DNA from: Sulfuricella sp.
GTDB taxonomy: Bacteria; Pseudomonadota; Gammaproteobacteria; Burkholderiales; Sulfuricellaceae
Reading direction: 5' to 3'
NCBI GenBank assembly: GCA_028714315.1
Contig: JAQTMN010000014.1
Location: 1 to 49,790, forward strand
Length of the DNA: 49,790 nt
A program made the translations under genes and the position numbers. Of the stretch, positions 6,633 to 38,584 are shown in pieces. Positions within the stretch are counted from its first letter, which is position 1, and every line of letters begins with the position of its first letter. The notes below the pieces were generated by a model. The model saw only the letters and a program-made list of their open reading frames with translations. It had not been told where the DNA came from and did not search any database.

Positions 6633-6860
6633 GTGGGTGCTGATTCATTCGCACAGCAACCATTGATCCTGAAAACCGCATTTGAACCACGGGGAACACG
6701 GAGAAAAATCCAGGCACTGCATAGAGCTTGCGTTTTACCCATTGGGTGAATGCGGATATTGCTCGAATGCTTCGTTTTACTCCGTGGCCTCCGTGATCTC
6801 CGTGGTTCAATCGAGGTTTTTTAGGTTTATAGGTTGCTGTGCGAATGAATTCGCGCCCAC
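6633..6860. repeat. Composite repeat bounded by GAATTCATTCGCAC ends
   Basis: The outer ends are GTGGGTGCTGATTCATTCGCAC (6633-6654) and its degenerate inverse at 6839-6860. Inside, TTGAACCACGGGGAACACGG (6681 onward) pairs loosely with CCGTGATCTCCGTGGTTCAA (ending about 6810). A similar inner pair is at 21189-21306. Short reading frames crossing this segment are judged not to be genes. The 6861-6959 stretch shows nothing else. Confidence 0.75.
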
Positions 6861-30775: not shown

Positions 30776-30818
30776 CTAGCCATTTTTGAAAGCACCGGCC
30801 GCGCGGCCGGACGGAAAT

Positions 30819-31772
30819 ATGGCAAGCGGCAACCACAAAGCGAAACTATCCATCATCGGCGCCGGCAACGTCGGCAGCCATGTCGCCGTGTACGCGGCGG
30901 GCAAGGATCTGGCCGACATCGTCCTGCTCGACCAGAACGCCGACAAGGCCAGGGGAACCGGGCTCGACATCACCCAGGCGATGGCGATGGCCAACATCGA
31001 CCGCGTGGTCACCGGCACCGGCGACTACGCGGCCACGGCCGGCTCGGACGTGGTGGTGATCACCGCCGGCCTGGCGCGCAAGCCGGGCATGTCGCGCGAC
31101 GATCTGCTGGAAGCGAACGCCGGCATCGTCCAGGCGGTGACCCGCGAGGCGGTCAGGCACTCCCCCGGCTGCATCCTGGTGGTGGTCACCAATCCGGTCA
31201 ACACCATGGCGCAGCTCGCCTACGAGGTCAGCGGGCTGCCGCGGGAAAGGGTCATCGGCGTATCCGGCGTGCTCGACAGCGCCCGCTTCAAGGCCTTCAT
31301 CGCCGAGGAATTGTCGGTCGGCGCGAGCCGGGTCGATGCCGTGGTGCTGGGCGACCATGGCGCGCAGATGGTGCCGCTGGTGGATCATTGCCAGGTCAAT
31401 GGCGTCCCCATCGGCAACCTGATGTCCCCGGAGCGGATCGCCGCCATCGTCGAACGGGTGCGGCACGGCGGCTCGGAGATCGTCAACCTGCTCAAGACCG
31501 GCTCGGCCTACTACGCCCCCGGCACGGCAACGGTGGAACTGCTCGAATGCATCCTGAAGGACCGCCAGGTGACGATACCTTGCGCGGTCTACCTCGAGGG
31601 CGAATACGGCGTGGACGGCCTCTACGTCGGCGTGCCGGCGCTGATCGGCGCGGCCGGCGTGGAGAAGGTGATCCAGCTCAATCTCAGCGCCACGGAGCAA
31701 AGGGATTTCGACCTGTCCGTGGTCCACATCCGCGAACGGCTCGACACGCTGAGGGCGAACACGCGGGCATGA
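30819..31772 (+). CDS. mdh: NAD-dependent malate dehydrogenase (LDH-like type)
   Basis: 317 aa from ATG 30819, preceded by ACGGA; an upstream TTG at 30786 is less likely. It interconverts malate and oxaloacetate. Rossmann motif LSIIGAGNVGSHVA, NAD-selecting Asp in IVLLDQN, substrate Arg loop GLARKPGMSRDDLLEANAG, VVVTNPVN, and catalytic His in VVLGDHGAQMVPL. The family is the LDH-like MDH (about 310 aa) found in many autotrophs and in rTCA organisms, rather than the cytosolic type. The korAB cluster starts 529 bp downstream on the same strand. Confidence 0.95.
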   Translation: MASGNHKAKLSIIGAGNVGSHVAVYAAGKDLADIVLLDQNADKARGTGLDITQAMAMANIDRVVTGTGDYAATAGSDVVVITAGLARKPGMSRDDLLEANAGIVQAVTREAVRHSPGCILVVVTNPVNTMAQLAYEVSGLPRERVIGVSGVLDSARFKAFIAEELSVGASRVDAVVLGDHGAQMVPLVDHCQVNGVPIGNLMSPERIAAIVERVRHGGSEIVNLLKTGSAYYAPGTATVELLECILKDRQVTIPCAVYLEGEYGVDGLYVGVPALIGAAGVEKVIQLNLSATEQRDFDLSVVHIRERLDTLRANTRA

Positions 31773-31795: not shown

Positions 31796-31929
31796 GTGGG
31801 TGCGAATTCATTCGCACAAAGTGCAAGAGCTGTTGTGGGTACGGCTTGAGCCGTACATGTCAGGCTCAAGCCTGACCCACACCTCGAACTAAGCCGACAC
31901 GGTGGATGTGCGAATGAATTCGCACCTAC
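31796..31929. repeat. Three palindromes: GAATTCATTCGCAC pair around a GTGGGTACGGC hairpin
   Basis: GTGGGTGCGAATTCATTCGC (31796-31817) is inverted at 31908-31929 (GTGCGAATGAATTCGCACCT). Between them, 31835-31880 is a hairpin of the GTGGGTC family (GTGGGTACGGCTTGAGCC ... GGCTCAAGCCTGACCCAC). Another copy of the GAATTC pair is at 35635-35692. Confidence 0.82.
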
Positions 31930-32301: not shown

Positions 32302-34017
32302 TTGAACAAGAACGATTTGATCATCCGCGTGGCGGGCGAAGGCGGAGAAGGCATCATCTCCACCGGCGACTTCATCACGCAGGCGTGCGCGCGCGCCGGT
32401 CTTGAGGTTTACACCTTCAAGACTTTCCCCGCCGAAATCAAGGGCGGCTACGCCATGTACCAGACCCGGGCCAGCGCCGCGCCGCTGTTCAACCAGGGCG
32501 ACACCTTCGACATCCTGTGCGCCTTCAACGGCGAGGCCTACGACCTGAACCGCAGCCGCCTGCGCCCCGGCACCGCCTTCGTCTACGACGGTCCGGGCGG
32601 CGATTTCGAGCCCGACGTACCGGAAGGCGTGCATGCCTACGCCATCCCGATGACCAAGACCGCCAAGGAAATGGGCAGCATCAAGGCGAAGAACATGGTG
32701 GCCCTGGGCGCCCTGTCCCAACTGTTCGACATACCGGAACAGCCGCTGCGCGAAATCATCGCCGCCAAGTTCACCAAAAAAGGCACCACGGTTCTCGAAA
32801 GCAACCTCAACGCCTTCACCCGCGGCCGCGAACTGGCGGCGGCGCTGCCCAAGACCGACTCGTGGCGGATGACCGCGCCGGCGGAAAAGCGCGATGTCGT
32901 CGTGCTCTCCGGCAACGATGCCATCGGTCTGGGCGCGCTGATCGCCGGCCTGGATTTCTTCGCCGCCTACCCGATCACCCCGGCCACGGAAATCGCCCGC
33001 TACGTGGCGCGGCATCTGCCCAAGCGCGGCGGCACCCTGATCCAGGCCGAGGACGAAATCGCCTCGCTGGCGCAGGTGCTCGGCGCATCCTTCGCCGGCA
33101 AGAAGGCGATGACCGCGACTTCCGGCCCCGGCCTCGCGCTGATGGGCGAAATGCTCGGCATGTCGTTCATGAGCGAAACCCCCTGCGTGGTGGTGGACGT
33201 GCAGCGCGGCGGCCCGTCCACCGGGCTGCCGACCAAGCATGAGCAGTCCGACCTGTTCATGGCGATCCACGGCTCCCACGGCGATTGCGGACGCATCGTG
33301 CTGTCGGTGGAAGGCGTTTCCGACTGCATCGCGCTAACGGTGGAAGCCTTCAACCTGGCCGAGAAGTACCAGTGTCCGGTGCTGCTCCTGTCCGACGGCT
33401 CCCTGGCGTTTTCCACCCAGACCGTGCCCTACCCCGAACCCGCCGATTACCCGATCGTGGCGCGCAAGGCCTGGGACGGCAAGGGCGAATACCAGCGCTA
33501 CGTCATCACCGACGACTATATTTCCCCGATGGCGGCGCCGGGCACGCCGGGCGGCATGCACATCGCCACTGGCCTGGAACACGACGAAATCGGCCAGCCC
33601 AACTACACCGGCGCCAACCACGAAGCCATGCAGGCCAAGCGCTTCCGCAAGCTCGACGGCGTGGTCAAGGATTTCGCGCCGGTGGAAGTGGACGGCGAAG
33701 GCGATGCCGAGCTGGGCATCATCGCCTGGGGCAGCACCATCGGCGTGGTGCGCGAAGGCATCGCGCGCCTGCGCGCCGAAGGCGTTTCGGTGAAGGGTTT
33801 CTATCCCAAGCTGTTGTGGCCGATGCCGGTCGAGCAATTCGAAGCTTTCGGCGCCACCTGCGGCAAGGTCGTGGTGGCCGAGGTGAACTACCTGGGGCAG
33901 CTGGCTCATTTCATCCGGGCCGAGACTAACCTGCGCCCGGAATCCTATACCATTTGCGGCGGCCTGCCTTTCACGCCCGCCATGATCGTCTCTAAAGTCA
34001 AGGAGATGCTGCGATGA
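32302..34017 (+). CDS. korA: 2-oxoacid:ferredoxin oxidoreductase, fused gamma-alpha subunit
   Basis: 571 aa. With KorB it interconverts 2-oxoglutarate and succinyl-CoA (or a related 2-oxoacid) using ferredoxin or another low-potential carrier. N-terminal gamma domain (about 1-190): IIRVAGEGGEGIISTGDFITQACARAG, TFPAEIKGGYAMYQ. Alpha domain from about 200: GNDAIGLGALIAGLDFFAAYPITPATEIARY, ATSGPGLALMGEMLG, VDVQRGGPSTGLPTKHEQSDL. C-terminal part with GSTIGVVREGI and NYLGQLAHFIRAE. The start is TTG 32302 (AGAGG upstream); the next codons match the family (NKNDLIIRVAGEGGEG). The stop overlaps the korB start by 4 nt. No delta (ferredoxin) subunit is present. Confidence 0.93.
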   Translation: MNKNDLIIRVAGEGGEGIISTGDFITQACARAGLEVYTFKTFPAEIKGGYAMYQTRASAAPLFNQGDTFDILCAFNGEAYDLNRSRLRPGTAFVYDGPGGDFEPDVPEGVHAYAIPMTKTAKEMGSIKAKNMVALGALSQLFDIPEQPLREIIAAKFTKKGTTVLESNLNAFTRGRELAAALPKTDSWRMTAPAEKRDVVVLSGNDAIGLGALIAGLDFFAAYPITPATEIARYVARHLPKRGGTLIQAEDEIASLAQVLGASFAGKKAMTATSGPGLALMGEMLGMSFMSETPCVVVDVQRGGPSTGLPTKHEQSDLFMAIHGSHGDCGRIVLSVEGVSDCIALTVEAFNLAEKYQCPVLLLSDGSLAFSTQTVPYPEPADYPIVARKAWDGKGEYQRYVITDDYISPMAAPGTPGGMHIATGLEHDEIGQPNYTGANHEAMQAKRFRKLDGVVKDFAPVEVDGEGDAELGIIAWGSTIGVVREGIARLRAEGVSVKGFYPKLLWPMPVEQFEAFGATCGKVVVAEVNYLGQLAHFIRAETNLRPESYTICGGLPFTPAMIVSKVKEMLR

Positions 34018-34901
34018 ATTGCGCTCAGACCCATCTGCACAAGGTCGAACTCGAAACCAAGGACTACAAGACCGACGCCAAGCCGTTCTGGTGTCCGGGC
34101 TGCGGCGACCACGGCGTGCTCACCGGCATGTACCGCGCCTTGGCCGAAATCGGCGTCGATCCCAACTACCTCGTGAACATTTCCGGCATCGGCTGCTCTT
34201 CGCGCCTGCCGTATTTCGTCCGTTCCTACAAGATGCACACCCTGCACGGCCGTGCGGGTCCGGTGGCGACCGGCGTGCAGCTGGCTCGTCCCGATCTGGC
34301 CATCCTGGTCAACGGCGGCGACGGCGACGGATTTTCCATCGGCGGCGGCCACATGCCGCACCTGGCGCGCAAGAACATCAACATGACCTACGTGCTGATG
34401 GACAACCGCGTCTACGGCCTGACCAAGGGCCAGGTCTCGCCCACCTCGCAGCGCCAGATGAAGGCCTACACCACGCCTTACGGCGGCGTCGAGGAGCCGC
34501 TCGACCCGGTGCTGTACATGCTGACCTACGGCGCGAGCTTCGTTGCCCAGACGCTGGCCACCAACGTGAAAATGACCGCGCAGCTCATCAAGGAGGGCAT
34601 GGAGCATCGCGGCTTTTCCTTCATCAGCGTGTTGAGCCAATGCCCCACTTTCAACACCATCGACGACGCGAAATCCTTCAAGGGTTCCTCTGAGGAGCTC
34701 CAGGACAATCACGACGTCAGCGACATCGACGCCGCCATGCACGCGGTGAACATGGCGCACAAAAACGGCAAGATCCCGGTCGGCCTGCTCTACCGCCAGG
34801 AACGCCCGACGCTCGACGAGCGCATGGCGGATCTGGTGAAACAGGCCGGCGGCCATCCGGGCTACGACCTGCGCAAGATCATCGACCTCTCCCGTCCATG
34901 A
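34014..34901 (+). CDS. korB: 2-oxoacid:ferredoxin oxidoreductase beta subunit (ThDP-binding)
   Basis: 295 aa. Carries ThDP and a 4Fe-4S cluster: PFWCPGCGDHGVLTG (two Cys), ISGIGCSSRLPYF (third), and the ThDP motif VNGGDGDGFSIGGGHMPHL with MDNRVYGLTKGQVSPTS. A further Cys in SVLSQCPTFN could give the fourth ligand. Family size and features fit 2-oxoglutarate synthase beta subunits (KorB). ATG 34014 overlaps korA; its stop overlaps the start of the next gene by 4 nt, so the three are translated together. Confidence 0.94.
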   Translation: MNCAQTHLHKVELETKDYKTDAKPFWCPGCGDHGVLTGMYRALAEIGVDPNYLVNISGIGCSSRLPYFVRSYKMHTLHGRAGPVATGVQLARPDLAILVNGGDGDGFSIGGGHMPHLARKNINMTYVLMDNRVYGLTKGQVSPTSQRQMKAYTTPYGGVEEPLDPVLYMLTYGASFVAQTLATNVKMTAQLIKEGMEHRGFSFISVLSQCPTFNTIDDAKSFKGSSEELQDNHDVSDIDAAMHAVNMAHKNGKIPVGLLYRQERPTLDERMADLVKQAGGHPGYDLRKIIDLSRP

Positions 34902-35542
34902 CCGACAGCGCCACTCCGGGCGGCGGCACCGTCGAACTGGTGATTGATGGCGTCGCGGTTCGCGCCGAGCCGCACATGACCATCGTCGAGGCGGCCTGGG
35001 CGGGCGGCGTACCGCGCGTCACCGGAGTGGGCTGCCTGGAGGGCGTGTGCGGATCGTGCCGGATCCTGCTGCGGCACGGCCCGGACGTCAGCGTCGCGCT
35101 GGCGTGCGAGACCTTCGCCGAGCAAGGCATCGAAGCGCTGTTCCTGCCCGCGCCGACCGCGGTTCGCCACCAGTACGAGCTGACCGATTTCACCGACGGC
35201 TGGGACATCCAGGCGCGCTTCAAGGAAATCTTCCCGGAAGCCAGCCGCTGCCGCCACTGCCACGGCTGCGTGCGCTCCTGCCCGAAGGGGATCGTGGTGG
35301 AGGAAGGCATCGCGCTGGCGGCGGCGGGCCGCTTCCGCGAAGCCGGCGAGGCTTTTCTCGAATGCGTCATGTGCGAGCTGTGCGACACCGCCTGCCCGGA
35401 ACAGATCGCCCCGGCCCACGTCGGCCTGTTCTGCCGCCGCATCACCGCTTTCTTCCACCTGCGCCCGCCCAACCTGATTCACCGGCTGGAAGAGCTCAGG
35501 CAAGAACCGTTCTCCAGCGCGGGAGAGAAGGAATCGTCGTGA
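34898..35542 (+). CDS. Iron-sulfur protein: 2Fe-2S ferredoxin domain plus two 4Fe-4S motifs (SdhB/FrdB-like)
   Basis: 214 aa. N-terminal plant-type 2Fe-2S domain with Cys46, 51, 54 and 70 (C-X4-C-X2-C-X15-C) in GVGCLEGVCGSC. A helical linker follows, then two 4Fe-4S motifs: Cys118/121/124/128 (CRHCHGCVRSCP) and Cys156/159/162/166 (CVMCELCDTACP). This is the plan of succinate dehydrogenase or fumarate reductase iron-sulfur subunits and of HdrC-like linkers, except that both C-terminal motifs keep all four Cys. It overlaps korB by 4 nt and could carry electrons between KorAB and the flavoprotein or NuoF. No membrane anchor is encoded nearby. A role as a ferredoxin-like hub is inference. Confidence 0.85.
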   Translation: MTDSATPGGGTVELVIDGVAVRAEPHMTIVEAAWAGGVPRVTGVGCLEGVCGSCRILLRHGPDVSVALACETFAEQGIEALFLPAPTAVRHQYELTDFTDGWDIQARFKEIFPEASRCRHCHGCVRSCPKGIVVEEGIALAAAGRFREAGEAFLECVMCELCDTACPEQIAPAHVGLFCRRITAFFHLRPPNLIHRLEELRQEPFSSAGEKESS

Positions 35543-35576
35543 ATAAAAAAATGGCAACCGTTCCCCTCTCCCCTAA

Positions 35577-35692
35577 CCCTCTCCCGCAAGCGGGAGAGGG
35601 GGACGTAGTCTCGCTTCGCGAGTTTCACGTTAACGTAGGTGCGAATTCATTCGCACAGCCAGCATCGATTGTGCGAATGAATTCGCACCTAC
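35577..35692. repeat. Hairpin plus perfect 23-bp inverted repeat between FeS and flavoprotein genes
   Basis: CCCTCTCCCG-CAAG-CGGGAGAGGG (35577-35600) is a perfect 10-bp stem. It is followed by CTCGCTTCGCGAGTTTCACG, the inverted TTAACGTGAAAC unit, and then by a perfect 23-bp inverted repeat starting GTAGGTGCGAATTCATTC (35635-35657) and its complement at 35670-35692. These lie in the 208-bp gap within the kor cluster and could act as mRNA stem-loops between its halves. Confidence 0.85.
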
Positions 35693-35750
35693 AGGCCGGC
35701 CGTCGCTCGTTTGCACCTATGAATATTTCGCGCCGGCCGCATTTCCCCGA

Positions 35751-37343
35751 ATGAAGCGCGGCCTTTCCCTCCAGGCCGCGCTCGCCGCCTATCGTCCCGA
35801 TGCCGAACTGGCGCCGCTGCCGGAGCAGATCGATCCGGACCGGCTGCTGAGCTTTTTCCATCCCGACCACCTGCGCGACAGCGTCACCACCCTCACCGTG
35901 GGGCCGAACGCGGGGGCGCACTGCCAGCGTGAGCTGGCCGATTTGCTCCAGGCGGAAGCGGTGATCGACGAAGTCGATCTGGCCGGCGTCCCGGTCACCG
36001 ACACCGACGTGCTGGTGATCGGCGGCGGCGGCGCGGGCTGCGCGGCCGCCCTCGCCGCCGCCGAACACGGCGCGCGGGTGCTGCTCGCCACCAAGCTGCG
36101 CCTTGGCGACAGCAACACGGTGATGGCCGAAGGCGGCATCCAGGCCGCCATCGAACCGGGCGACAGCGCGCAGAAACACATGCAGGACACCCTGCGCGCC
36201 GGCCATCACGCCGGCGACCCGGCGCTGGTGGCGGCCATGGTCGGCGACGGCCCCGAAGTGATCCACTGGCTGATCCGCCAGGGCATGCAGTTCGACCAGA
36301 CCGACAGCGGCGACCTGCATACGCGCCGGGCGGGCGGCACCAGCGCGCCGCGCATCGTGCATTGCCGCGACTACACCGGGCTCGAAATGATGCGCGTGCT
36401 GCGCGAGGCGGTGGCCCAGCATCGCGGCATCGAAGTGTGGGACCAACACCCCGCCGTCGAGCTGCTGTCCAACGAACGCGGCCAGAAATGCGTGGGCGCG
36501 GTGCTGTCCTCGCTCGCCGACCGGAGCCTGCGCATCGTGCGCACCCGCTCGGTGATCCTCGCCACCGGCGGCCTCGGACGGCTGCACCTGAACGGCTTCC
36601 CTACTTCCAACCATCTCGGCGCCACCGGCGACGGGCTGGTGCTGGCGTACCGGATGGGCGCCCGGCTGTGCGAGCTCGATTCGTTCCAGTACCACCCCAC
36701 CGGGCTGGTCAATCCGCCCTACCTGTCGGGCAAGCTGGTCACCGAAGGCATCCGCGCCGCCGGCGCGCTGCTGCTGAATGCACAGGGACAACGCTTCGTC
36801 GATGAATTGCAGCCGCGCGACATCGTCTGCGCCGCCATCATCCGCGAATGCCGCGAAGGCCGCGGCATCCACCCCGACGTCGGCGGCGTCGGCGTGTGGC
36901 TCGACACTCCACGCCTGGAGCGCAGCCAACCCGGCCTGCTCGAACGGCAGTTCCCCAAGCTGCTGGCGCGCACCCGCGTGGCCGGCATCGACCCGCGCAG
37001 CGAACCGATCCTGGTCTATCCGACCCTGCATTACCAGAACGGCGGCGCCGTGATCGATGTCGATGGCGCCACCACCGTCCCCGGCCTGTATGCGGCGGGC
37101 GAAGTCGCCGGCGGCATCCACGGCCGCAACCGCATCATGGGCAACGCGCTGCTGGAAATCATCGGCTTCGGCCGCCGCGCCGGCATTGCCGCCGCCCTGT
37201 CCGGCCACGACCGCGGCCCGAAGAAAATCACCCTGGAGCACGTCAACCGCGCCCGCCGCGCCCTGGCCCTGGCCGGCCTGCCGCTGGCACGGCGCGCGCC
37301 GCAGGTGCTGCCCCCCTATGCGGCGATGGGGAAAGATTCATGA
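35751..37343 (+). CDS. FAD flavoprotein of the SdhA/FrdA/NadB family with N-terminal extension
   Basis: 530 aa. The first 80 or so residues are an unrecognised extension (SLQAALAAYRPDAELAPLPE...). The FAD motif TDVLVIGGGGAGCAAALAAAEHG follows. The region holding the covalent-FAD His in SdhA/FrdA (RSHT) reads GDSNTVMAEGGIQ, with Asn, so FAD is probably not covalently bound. Substrate-domain landmarks are QYHPTGL, TEGIRAAGALLLN and LHYQNGGAVIDVDGA, and the C-terminus is GLYAAGEVAGGIHGRNRIMGN. It may be a fumarate reductase-like enzyme, an L-aspartate oxidase relative or an electron-transfer flavoprotein. The stop overlaps the NuoF-like start by 4 nt; a 12-codon frame (35719-35754) ends on its own start (ATGA). 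Confidence 0.85.
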   Translation: MKRGLSLQAALAAYRPDAELAPLPEQIDPDRLLSFFHPDHLRDSVTTLTVGPNAGAHCQRELADLLQAEAVIDEVDLAGVPVTDTDVLVIGGGGAGCAAALAAAEHGARVLLATKLRLGDSNTVMAEGGIQAAIEPGDSAQKHMQDTLRAGHHAGDPALVAAMVGDGPEVIHWLIRQGMQFDQTDSGDLHTRRAGGTSAPRIVHCRDYTGLEMMRVLREAVAQHRGIEVWDQHPAVELLSNERGQKCVGAVLSSLADRSLRIVRTRSVILATGGLGRLHLNGFPTSNHLGATGDGLVLAYRMGARLCELDSFQYHPTGLVNPPYLSGKLVTEGIRAAGALLLNAQGQRFVDELQPRDIVCAAIIRECREGRGIHPDVGGVGVWLDTPRLERSQPGLLERQFPKLLARTRVAGIDPRSEPILVYPTLHYQNGGAVIDVDGATTVPGLYAAGEVAGGIHGRNRIMGNALLEIIGFGRRAGIAAALSGHDRGPKKITLEHVNRARRALALAGLPLARRAPQVLPPYAAMGKDS

Positions 37344-38584
37344 GCCGCCTGAACGCCAATCTCCTCCACCCCTGCCAGCGGGTCGGCGACAACCTGGCGC
37401 GCTGGCGCGAGGCTGGCGGCGGCGAAGCGCTGCGCCTCGGCGCGGCTAACCCCGCGGCCATCCTCGCCGCCGTCAAGGACGCCGACCTGCGCGGCCTCGG
37501 CGGCAGCGGCTTCCCGGTCTGGCGCAAGTGGGAGGCGGTGGCGAGCGAAGCGCCGCGCCCCGACAAATACCTGGTGTGCAACGGCAACGAGGACGAGCCC
37601 GGCACCTTCAAGGACCGTCTGCTGCTCGAAGAAACGCCGCACCAGGTGATCGAGGGCGCGCTGCTCGCCGCGCTGGCGGTCGGCGCCAACCGCGTCGTGC
37701 TTTACGTCAACCCCGACCTGACGCGCTCCCTTGCCGCGCTGCAGGCGGCGCTCGCCCGGTGGCACAATACCGAATTCCTGCAACTGGCCGGCGATGCGCT
37801 GGGGCAGGCGATCACGGTGGAATTGGTGCCCAGCTCCGGCCATTACATCGGCGGCGAGGAAACCGCCGCGCTGGAGTGGATCGAAGGCAAGTTCCCGTTC
37901 CCGCGCGGCAAGCCGCCCTACCCGGCGCAATACGGCGTGCACGGCTGCCCGACCCTGATCAACAACGTCGAAACCCTGGCCAACATCCCCGCCATCGTGC
38001 GCCACGGCGCGGACTGGTTCCGCGCCCAAAGCACCGGGCGCGGCACCGGCAGCAAGCTCTATTCCCTCAGCGGCGACGTGCTGCACCCCGGCGTGTACGA
38101 ACTGCCGATGGGCACCACCCTGGGCGACCTGATTTTCGTCCATGGCGGCGGATTGCTCTCCGGCAAGCCGCTCAAGGCGGTATTCACCGGCGGCCCGTCC
38201 AACACCCTGCTGACTCCGGCCGACCTGGACGTCAGCCTCGACTTCGACTCCCTGCGCGAACGCGGCGCCGCCCTGGGCACCGGCGCCATGATCGTGGTGT
38301 CGGAAGGCACCGGCATGGTCAAGCGCGTCGCCGAATACGCGCGCTTCTTCGCCCACTCCTCCTGCGGCCAATGCATCTCCTGCAAGACCGGCACCGCCAC
38401 CATCAGCCGCCTGCTCGACCGCATCGACACCGGGCGCGGCACCGCGGCCGACCTGGCCACCCTGGAAAGCCTCTGCCGCATGCTTCCCGGCACCGGCCGC
38501 TGCCATCTGGTCAACGGCGTGGCGCAACTGCTCGACAGCTCGTTCCGGCATTTTCGACAGGAATATCGGCAGGCGTTGAAGTAA
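37340..38584 (+). CDS. NuoF-like NADH/FMN-binding and 4Fe-4S protein
   Basis: 414 aa. Equivalent to the flavin subunit of complex I and of soluble bifurcating enzymes. Landmarks: GLGGSGFPVWRKW (FMN/NADH region), NGNEDEPGTFKDR (NADH region), SGHYIGGEETAALEWIEGK (FMN), and a C-terminal 4Fe-4S motif with SSCGQCISCKTGT plus a distal Cys (LCRMLPGTGRCHL). It lacks the extra ferredoxin domain of HydB-type proteins and has no NuoE neighbour. It starts at ATG 37340, inside the end of the flavoprotein gene. Likely an NAD(P)H electron port for the kor/flavoprotein assembly; the coenzyme preference is not read from sequence. Confidence 0.9.
   Translation: MSRLNANLLHPCQRVGDNLARWREAGGGEALRLGAANPAAILAAVKDADLRGLGGSGFPVWRKWEAVASEAPRPDKYLVCNGNEDEPGTFKDRLLLEETPHQVIEGALLAALAVGANRVVLYVNPDLTRSLAALQAALARWHNTEFLQLAGDALGQAITVELVPSSGHYIGGEETAALEWIEGKFPFPRGKPPYPAQYGVHGCPTLINNVETLANIPAIVRHGADWFRAQSTGRGTGSKLYSLSGDVLHPGVYELPMGTTLGDLIFVHGGGLLSGKPLKAVFTGGPSNTLLTPADLDVSLDFDSLRERGAALGTGAMIVVSEGTGMVKRVAEYARFFAHSSCGQCISCKTGTATISRLLDRIDTGRGTAADLATLESLCRMLPGTGRCHLVNGVAQLLDSSFRHFRQEYRQALK

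Follow-up and report, generated by a model that had tools for sequence, protein, structure and literature searches.

A soluble NADH-dependent fumarate reductase with five subunits, encoded at scattered loci and acting in the reductive tricarboxylic acid (TCA) cycle of Hydrogenobacter thermophilus, was reportedly described by Miura et al. in 2008, a paper that PMC12743299 cites. The fumarate reductase TfrAB of methanogens is likewise soluble and uses a donor other than quinone, and the Fe-S subunit of complex II carries a [4Fe-4S] and a [3Fe-4S] cluster. The Magnetococcus-type 2-oxoglutarate:ferredoxin oxidoreductase of structure 6n2n is, as we take it, a complete two-subunit enzyme. In the available passages of Rubin-Blum et al. 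2019 (PMC6315080), tubeworm symbionts and Thioflavicoccus carry tfrAB-korABCD-flxABCD-hdrABC clusters of the reductive TCA cycle; according to the corresponding passages of a 2024 study, expression was similar across the tubeworm-symbiont cluster, tfrAB excepted (PMC11636981), and those of a 2016 Thiomargarita paper give korAB and frdA as signs of that cycle (PMC4914600). The DNA analysed here (the window) is a stretch of 49,790 nucleotides from Sulfuricella sp. (contig JAQTMN010000014.1). At 32302-38584 it carries five genes in sequence, korA, korB and the genes for an SdhB-like Fe-S protein (FeS), an SdhA-like flavoprotein (FP) and a NuoF-like protein (Table 1). From homology, conserved residues and gene context, we consider it likely that they encode two cooperating soluble enzymes, an NADH:fumarate reductase made of the last three proteins (the triad) and KorAB, which would form a reductive C4-to-C5 branch of the TCA cycle.

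As reported, the Hydrogenobacter enzyme is like the proposed triad enzyme in being soluble, taking NADH as donor, serving the reductive TCA cycle and having no anchor, and by analogy it is a functional precedent; the genes described here, however, stand three in a row, include a NuoF-like module and lie beside korAB. The tubeworm-symbiont cluster, as far as the passages available describe it, also has a thiol:fumarate-reductase-like pair beside a 2-oxoglutarate:ferredoxin oxidoreductase and an NADH-oxidising module, but with a proposed bifurcating Flx-Hdr and a four-subunit Kor in place of a single NuoF-like protein and a two-subunit KorAB. The Magnetococcus-type cluster shares KorA (70% identity), KorB (60%) and the adjacent FeS/FP pair, whereas it includes SucCD, and no NuoF homologue was detected by tblastn in the stretches fetched. 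TfrA of methanogens was the best NCBIfam match of FP, with 339 bits under a cut-off of 718, and NadB was second with 331 bits; unlike TfrAB, the 214-residue FeS protein had no match to a CCG (HdrB-like) domain in Pfam, and a NuoF-like partner is present. With FrdAB of complex II the triad shares the FAD domain, the active-site residues and the SdhB-like [2Fe-2S] motif, but it differs in the missing His for covalent FAD, a shortened C-terminus, two [4Fe-4S] motifs and the lack of an anchor among the scanned neighbours. A literature search of titles and abstract openings, with most subscription papers outside its scope, gave no description of the NuoF variant. Its combination with a two-subunit KorAB did not appear in the available passages of PMC6315080, PMC11636981 and PMC4914600, and the main text of a Gallionellaceae pangenome paper (PMC10734462) had no match for TCA, fumarate or oxoglutarate.

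KorAB and the proteins of the triad

In Pfam and NCBIfam searches, KorA contained the POR gamma and alpha domains and KorB the TPP/PFO beta domain. KorA and KorB scored 632 and 280 bits over the cut-offs of TIGR03710 and TIGR02177, respectively, and their best chains in the PDB were 6n2n_A (926 bits) and 6n2n_B (404 bits). They were 69.6% and 59.9% identical to the proteins of the distant locus L175, with 570 of 571 and 288 of 295 residues aligned, and the KorA of L175 was identical to 6n2n_A over 573 residues. The N-terminus of KorA aligned with that of 6n2n from residue 1. Cysteines C27, C30, C61 and C210 of KorB matched C26, C29, C60 and C209 of L175 KorB, and these four are presumably cluster ligands. 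By homology, KorAB of the window is a 2-oxoglutarate:ferredoxin oxidoreductase of the 6n2n (Magnetococcus) type.

The FeS protein, with Pfam dicluster Fe-S domains, had a [2Fe-2S] motif of SdhB type (C46, C51, C54 and C70) and two complete four-cysteine [4Fe-4S] motifs (C118/121/124/128 and C156/159/162/166). All 12 motif cysteines were invariant across 31 aligned sequences; the alignment leaves out L094, which has a stop codon. FP contained a FAD_binding_2 domain, an N-terminal extension of about 80 residues and a short C-terminus. Residues H315, E332, R335, R356, H427 and R461, which align with E. coli SdhA and other PDB chains and which we take to be the fumarate or dicarboxylate site, were kept in 107 of 107 relatives. 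All 107 flavoproteins had Asn at what is presumably the position of the FAD-linking His of complex II (residue 122 in the window), and membership of complex II was rejected on this ground. Position 194, which we assume to be that of the active-site Glu in the NadB motif REGGHS, was Ala, Gly or Pro in 107/107 and Glu in 4/4 NadB rows; with this diagnostic Glu missing, identity as L-aspartate oxidase (NadB) was also rejected. The fold model of FP (predicted local distance difference test score, pLDDT, 75) matched chains of succinate dehydrogenase and fumarate reductase, flavocytochrome c3 and NadB with template modelling (TM) scores of 0.55-0.66. E. coli FrdA in which the FAD-linking His is replaced reportedly no longer oxidises succinate but still reduces fumarate; by analogy, an Asn-bearing FP would be biased towards reduction.

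The NuoF-like protein had Complex1_51K, SLBB and NADH_4Fe-4S domains, that is, an FMN domain, SLBB and a 4Fe-4S domain, with four N3-type cysteines (C342, C345, C348 and C388). It scored 387 bits with TIGR01959, under the equivalog cut-off of 559. The best alignment was with the bifurcating hydrogenase chain 7t2r_B and covered only residues 144-524 of its 597; the NuoF-like protein corresponds to the core module without the extra N- and C-terminal stretches. A reading made earlier from the sequence alone (the sequence-only reading) had considered confurcation of electrons from 2-oxoglutarate oxidation onto NAD, which is not favoured because these extra stretches are missing. The identities that it gave to the five genes were borne out by the domain and structure matches, and NADH entry through the NuoF-like protein is supported by homology.

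The triad with and without KorAB

We searched 399 genomes of the same order and a 398-genome sample of the phylum, scoring at most three candidates per genome. Among the 399 genomes, 20 flavoprotein matches in 19 genomes exceeded 440 bits; the next had 239 bits, and we take the matches from there downwards for the NadB group. The 19 best loci, compared by local tblastn, comprised seven with the order KorB-FeS-FP-NuoF (the window included), nine FeS-FP-NuoF loci without KorAB in the stretches fetched (five f44 and four f27 loci) and three with the order FeS-FP-HdrC-HdrB-KorA-KorB-KorG-HdrA. The f44 triads adjoined a class I fumarase and a dicarboxylate-type transporter in 5/5, and the f27 triads a Mem_trans transporter in 4/4. 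The Hdr-Kor loci L046-L049 resemble the tfrAB-kor-flx-hdr layout of the tubeworm symbionts, as given in the passages available; in L049 a rubrerythrin gene followed FP. One genome of the window's genus, G358, carried both a KorAB-FeS-FP-NuoF cassette (L036) and a fourth cluster with the Hdr-Kor order (L046). KorA scored above 1000 bits in 7/399 genomes, the same seven that have KorB beside the triad, and in none of the 392 others, where the next score was 383.

A contig scan with the Fe-S alignment gave 160 confirmed loci, of which the best 80 were named. The gene korB stood directly upstream of FeS in 36 of these 80; 35 continued with FP and NuoF, and the other one, L089, ended at a contig edge. 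The order is thus non-random, far beyond chance, and the search in other genomes that had been suggested for the five-gene order recovered it repeatedly. These Kor-linked loci came mostly from Sulfuricella, Gallionella, Ferrigenium, Rhodocyclaceae and other betaproteobacterial metagenome-assembled genomes (MAGs), and in loci of Gallionellaceae and Sulfuricellaceae type the genes were together wherever the locus was long enough to show it. With mechanically chosen starts, korA and korB overlapped by 4 nt in 33/33 loci and korB and FeS in 19/35. In L032 and L034 (genomes G035 and G080), a dUTPase gene and then NiFe hydrogenase genes with a CCG/4Fe-4S subunit followed within a few kb on the downstream side of the NuoF gene; the hydrogenase was identified by Pfam in L034 and by the same gene clusters in L032.

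The other 44 named loci included 31 with FeS, FP and NuoF by the rule of our script and 13 without a visible triad, so that 31 of 66 triads had no korB directly upstream. They belonged to alphaproteobacteria including LM-1, Thiomargarita, Sedimenticola, tubeworm symbionts, Cupriavidus, Paraburkholderia and Pseudomonas asuensis. Five of the 31 had a distant KorA (31%) just downstream (L095, L102, L114, L115 and L117), two had a close KorA (66%) 6-8 kb away (L103 and L108), and the triad of L090 began at a contig edge. The 13 triad-less loci consisted of four at contig edges (L096, L097, L104 and L110), five with FP and no NuoF, and four with neither. At an E-value of 1e-40, no KorA homologue was found in 20 of 38 genomes whose triad has no korB directly upstream (the genome of L122 is left out of this count); three had a close KorA of 66-67% identity (L103, L106 and L108) and the other 15 more distant homologues. 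The triad thus occurs in genomes that lack, at this threshold, any Kor of the superfamily, and a constant tie of Kor to the triad was rejected. The sequence-only reading had held that triads occurring mostly apart from korAB would speak against a complex. Such separation was found in part, in the 31 of 66 triads and the 20 of 38 genomes, with KorA nearby in seven of the 31.

In the phylum sample, an FP relative with about 48-53% identity was present in 30 genomes besides the window's, and the loci of 20 were fetched. The order FeS-FP-sucC-sucD-korA was found on one strand in 20/20, followed by korB in 19, with one cut by the contig end; the names SucC and SucD were confirmed by tblastn in all 20 loci, and Pfam agreed on both proteins in L175 and on SucC in L168. 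In locus L168, mdh and a two-gene fumarase come directly before this run, and the genes thus stand in the sequence of the reactions.

A flavoprotein tree of 111 rows, made by a quick method and leaving out L096, L110 and L128 as too short, separated the NuoF-type rows from the SucCD-Kor, Hdr-Kor and Ilyobacter rows with a Shimodaira-Hasegawa-like approximate likelihood ratio (SH-aLRT) support of 100. The 20 SucCD-Kor rows and the four Hdr-Kor rows each formed one clade. NadB was set apart by long, fully supported branches, its root being distant. The NuoF-type side included L105, L107, L109, L111 and L113; in L107 an aconitase gene lies right upstream of FeS-FP on the opposite strand. The flavoproteins of L106 and L111 (Candidatus Polarisedimenticolaceae) were very close to Sedimenticola's, and that of L090 (Opitutia) was nested among Gallionellaceae; these three are possibly mislabelled or misbinned contigs, or cases of recent transfer. 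On plasmid pILYOP01 of Ilyobacter polytropus (L130), the FeS/FP pair ends a run of HdrA, HdrB, 4Fe-4S and hydrogenase iron-sulfur genes, with a fumarate-producing aspartate ammonia-lyase at the opposite end, about 7 kb away. It is a possible bifurcating aspartate-to-succinate system; the label Flx-like for this run is ours and not that of the annotation.

Proposed reductive branch and its alternatives

In the proposed path, NADH would reduce the FMN and [4Fe-4S] cluster of the NuoF-like protein, from which electrons would pass to the [2Fe-2S] and two [4Fe-4S] clusters of FeS and on to a non-covalent FAD in FP, where fumarate would be reduced to succinate. KorAB, probably with ferredoxin as donor, would convert succinyl-CoA and CO2 to 2-oxoglutarate. 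The branch would lead from oxaloacetate through malate, fumarate, succinate and succinyl-CoA to 2-oxoglutarate, and the five genes may be co-transcribed because they provide the two steps for which the lower TCA cycle, run reductively, requires other enzymes. This agrees, as a pathway, with the first direction put forward in the sequence-only reading, fumarate reduction with carboxylation of succinyl-CoA. A soluble assembly, also proposed there, fits the neighbourhood: no delta ferredoxin subunit or membrane anchor was found in a scan of three neighbouring genes, which encode a TonB receptor, malate dehydrogenase and a nucleotidyltransferase, nor an anchor among the scanned flanking proteins of relatives, which cover part of the flanking open reading frames (ORFs). 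The pathway link between triad and Kor is strong, and the five triads with a distant KorA downstream support it.

The canonical TCA enzymes were sought in two panels of genomes, one of 17 (seven with Kor-linked triads, four with triads without Kor, two with Hdr-Kor and four of the same genus without the cassette) and one of 22. The window's genome also has a canonical sdhA (946 bits), sucA, citrate synthase and a class I fumarase. Both sucA and sdhA were over the cut-off in 15/17 and 19/22 genomes, and replacement of a missing succinate dehydrogenase (SDH) or 2-oxoglutarate dehydrogenase (OGDH) by the cassette was mostly rejected. With canonical sdhA, sucA and citrate synthase present, the cassette usually repeats the steps at succinate and 2-oxoglutarate, which is what one expects of enzymes that work in the opposite direction. 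Two genomes with the cassette, G331 and G358, had no sucA match and no sdhA over the cut-off, and G331 had no citrate synthase match either; true loss is unsure because these MAGs are 87-89% complete. In the second panel, sucA was missing in G409, G410 and G414, and only pieces of sdhA were found in G410, G414 and G417. A second FP homologue of about 280-334 bits, presumably NadB, occurred in 15/17 genomes and was not seen in the window's own, incomplete assembly.

Several observations weigh against the two-enzyme reductive branch or lie outside it. KorAB is reversible in principle, and canonical SDH and OGDH in the same genomes make the cassette dispensable for an oxidative cycle, but its direction is still inferred. 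No NuoE/HydC-type [2Fe-2S] partner was found in the cassette or the three scanned neighbours, and the characterised NuoF-type units known to us have a NuoE-like partner. The five gammaproteobacterial loci L105, L107, L109, L111 and L113 have FeS-FP with no NuoF-like gene beside it, which shows that the wider family does not always include NuoF, and FeS occurs without FP in L094, L100, L101 and L116. Pathway genes are rare around the Kor-linked named loci: mdh was in the stretch in 5/36 (L050, L053 at about 5 kb, L057, L068 and L069), fumarase in 1/36 (L072) and SucCD in 0/36; mdh was also in the fetched stretch of L035. Class I fumarase was found in 16/17 genomes and not in G365. The Kor-linked rows of the tree are not one clade, since four triads that lack korB upstream, L076, L087 and L088 (named alphaproteobacteria) and L086 (Proteobacteria), as well as L090 (an Opitutia contig starting at the contig edge), are nested inside. 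The fold model of FeS (pLDDT 78) gave only weak Foldseek matches, with TM about 0.28, to StnABC/Nfn, complex I and others.

The sequence-only reading had proposed one soluble five-protein complex, in which the KorB cluster would exchange electrons directly with FeS and couple the chemistry of NADH, fumarate and 2-oxoglutarate/succinyl-CoA. Much of the gene order suits it, namely the korB gene immediately before FeS in 36 of the 80 named loci, the 4-nt overlaps, the co-occurrence of close KorA and Kor-linked triad in the same seven of 399 genomes and the distant KorA behind five further triads; FeS also has two [4Fe-4S] motifs like the Kor delta subunit and a weak OorD match (E 5e-4), far below the cut-off. 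The same surveys, however, placed 31 of 66 triads without korB upstream, found no KorA in 20 of 38 such genomes and showed SucCD between FP and KorAB in 20/20 Magnetococcus-type loci, and 6n2n, the best-matched solved Kor, whose chains A and B were compared, is, as we take it, complete with two subunits. A single complex is not supported by these counts and we regard it as improbable; it is conceivable for loci of Gallionellaceae and Sulfuricellaceae type, but no result calls for it. Still less credible is a five-protein enzyme in which half of the electrons from NADH would go to fumarate and the other half, by way of FeS, to KorAB (2 NADH + fumarate + succinyl-CoA + CO2 -> succinate + 2-oxoglutarate + CoA + 2 NAD+), which we think very improbable. 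The potentials are -320 mV for NAD, +30 mV for fumarate and about -490 mV for succinyl-CoA/2-oxoglutarate, and by these textbook values such a bifurcation would be downhill by about 35 kJ/mol, so that fumarate reduction would pay for CO2 fixation with no external ferredoxin. If true, the enzyme would correspond, in minimal form, to the Flx-Hdr-TfrAB-Kor clusters.

An alternative that we find unlikely, though the least so of those weighed, makes the triad a redox-balancing NADH:fumarate reductase of fermentation or low-oxygen fumarate respiration, with KorAB running oxidatively to succinyl-CoA and reduced ferredoxin, as in a branched TCA cycle ending in succinate from both sides. The Kor-less triads beside fumarase and dicarboxylate-type transporters are in keeping with this, and the sucA counts imply that Kor is not needed oxidatively in air, with anaerobic oxidative use possible. 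It fits less well with the clusters in which Kor, SucCD and FeS-FP follow the order of the pathway, joined in L168 by fumarase and mdh, or with the tfrAB-kor clusters of tubeworm symbionts, which carry ATP citrate lyase in the passages available (PMC6315080), in line with the reductive direction. That the flavoprotein is L-aspartate oxidase or another 2-enoate reductase seems to us quite improbable. NadB was its second-best NCBIfam match and the NadB rows also lack the FAD-linking His, and in an f27 genome the neighbouring transporter and malonate-type genes could point to a different dicarboxylate. Against this stand the residues at position 194, the second homologue, presumably NadB, that exists besides FP in 15/17 genomes, the long and fully supported NadB branches, and TCA genes as the neighbours of FP.

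Gene layout, repeat insert and implications

Table 1. Features of the cassette region in the window.
Feature	Position	Strand	Details
korA, fused gamma-alpha subunit of 2-oxoglutarate:ferredoxin oxidoreductase	32302..34017	+	571 aa, TTG start; TIGR03710, 6n2n_A
korB, thiamine-diphosphate beta subunit	34014..34901	+	295 aa; TIGR02177, 6n2n_B
SdhB-like Fe-S protein (FeS)	34898..35542	+	214 aa; Pfam dicluster domains, 12 invariant Cys
208-nt insert between FeS and FP	35543..35750		carries perfect 23-nt inverted repeat; absent in L050
FrdA/SdhA-like flavoprotein (FP)	35751..37343	+	530 aa; fumarate-site residues kept, Asn122 for FAD-linking His
NuoF-like NADH/FMN protein	37340..38584	+	414 aa; TIGR01959, four N3-type Cys
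mdh, malate dehydrogenase, upstream neighbour, possible pathway partner	30786..31772	+	NCBIfam TIGR01763, 389 bits over cut-off

The five-gene order and the three ATGA overlaps of exactly 4 nt noted from the sequence alone were confirmed from the ORF coordinates (korA/korB 34014-34017, korB/FeS 34898-34901, FP/NuoF 37340-37343). The start of the NuoF-like gene was set at 37340; a longer mechanical ORF from 36848 would overlap the flavoprotein gene. The fourth junction, FeS-FP, is a gap of 208 nt, and positions 35635-35657 and 35670-35692 within it form a perfect inverted repeat of 23 nt. All four junctions overlap by 4 nt in L050 (Sulfuricella sp.), the nearest relative, whose five proteins are 92-97% identical to those of the window. 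Because the FeS/FP junction is one of them, the gap in the window looks like a recent insertion, and the ancestor probably had the five genes in one tightly packed run. The 22-nt core of the repeat, which resembles repetitive extragenic palindromic (REP) elements, had 145 half-sites in the window's genome with up to two mismatches (70 forward and 75 reverse), and its reversed control pattern gave 0 sites in the same search. Copies of the REP-like repeat lie at 6633-6860, 31796-31929 (upstream of korA) and 35635-35692 (inside the operon, between FeS and FP) in the window.

Gallionella and Sulfuricella MAGs, Cupriavidus and tubeworm symbionts are among the carriers of homologous triads. If the reading as a soluble NADH:fumarate reductase, with a NuoF-like protein on a TfrAB/FrdAB-like core, is true, it would be a compact way to reverse the succinate step without a membrane. 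The organisms carrying the KorAB-linked triad are, we assume, iron and sulfur oxidisers that use the Calvin cycle, and the triad suggests that they are able to run the lower TCA cycle backwards and still retain SDH and OGDH for oxidation.

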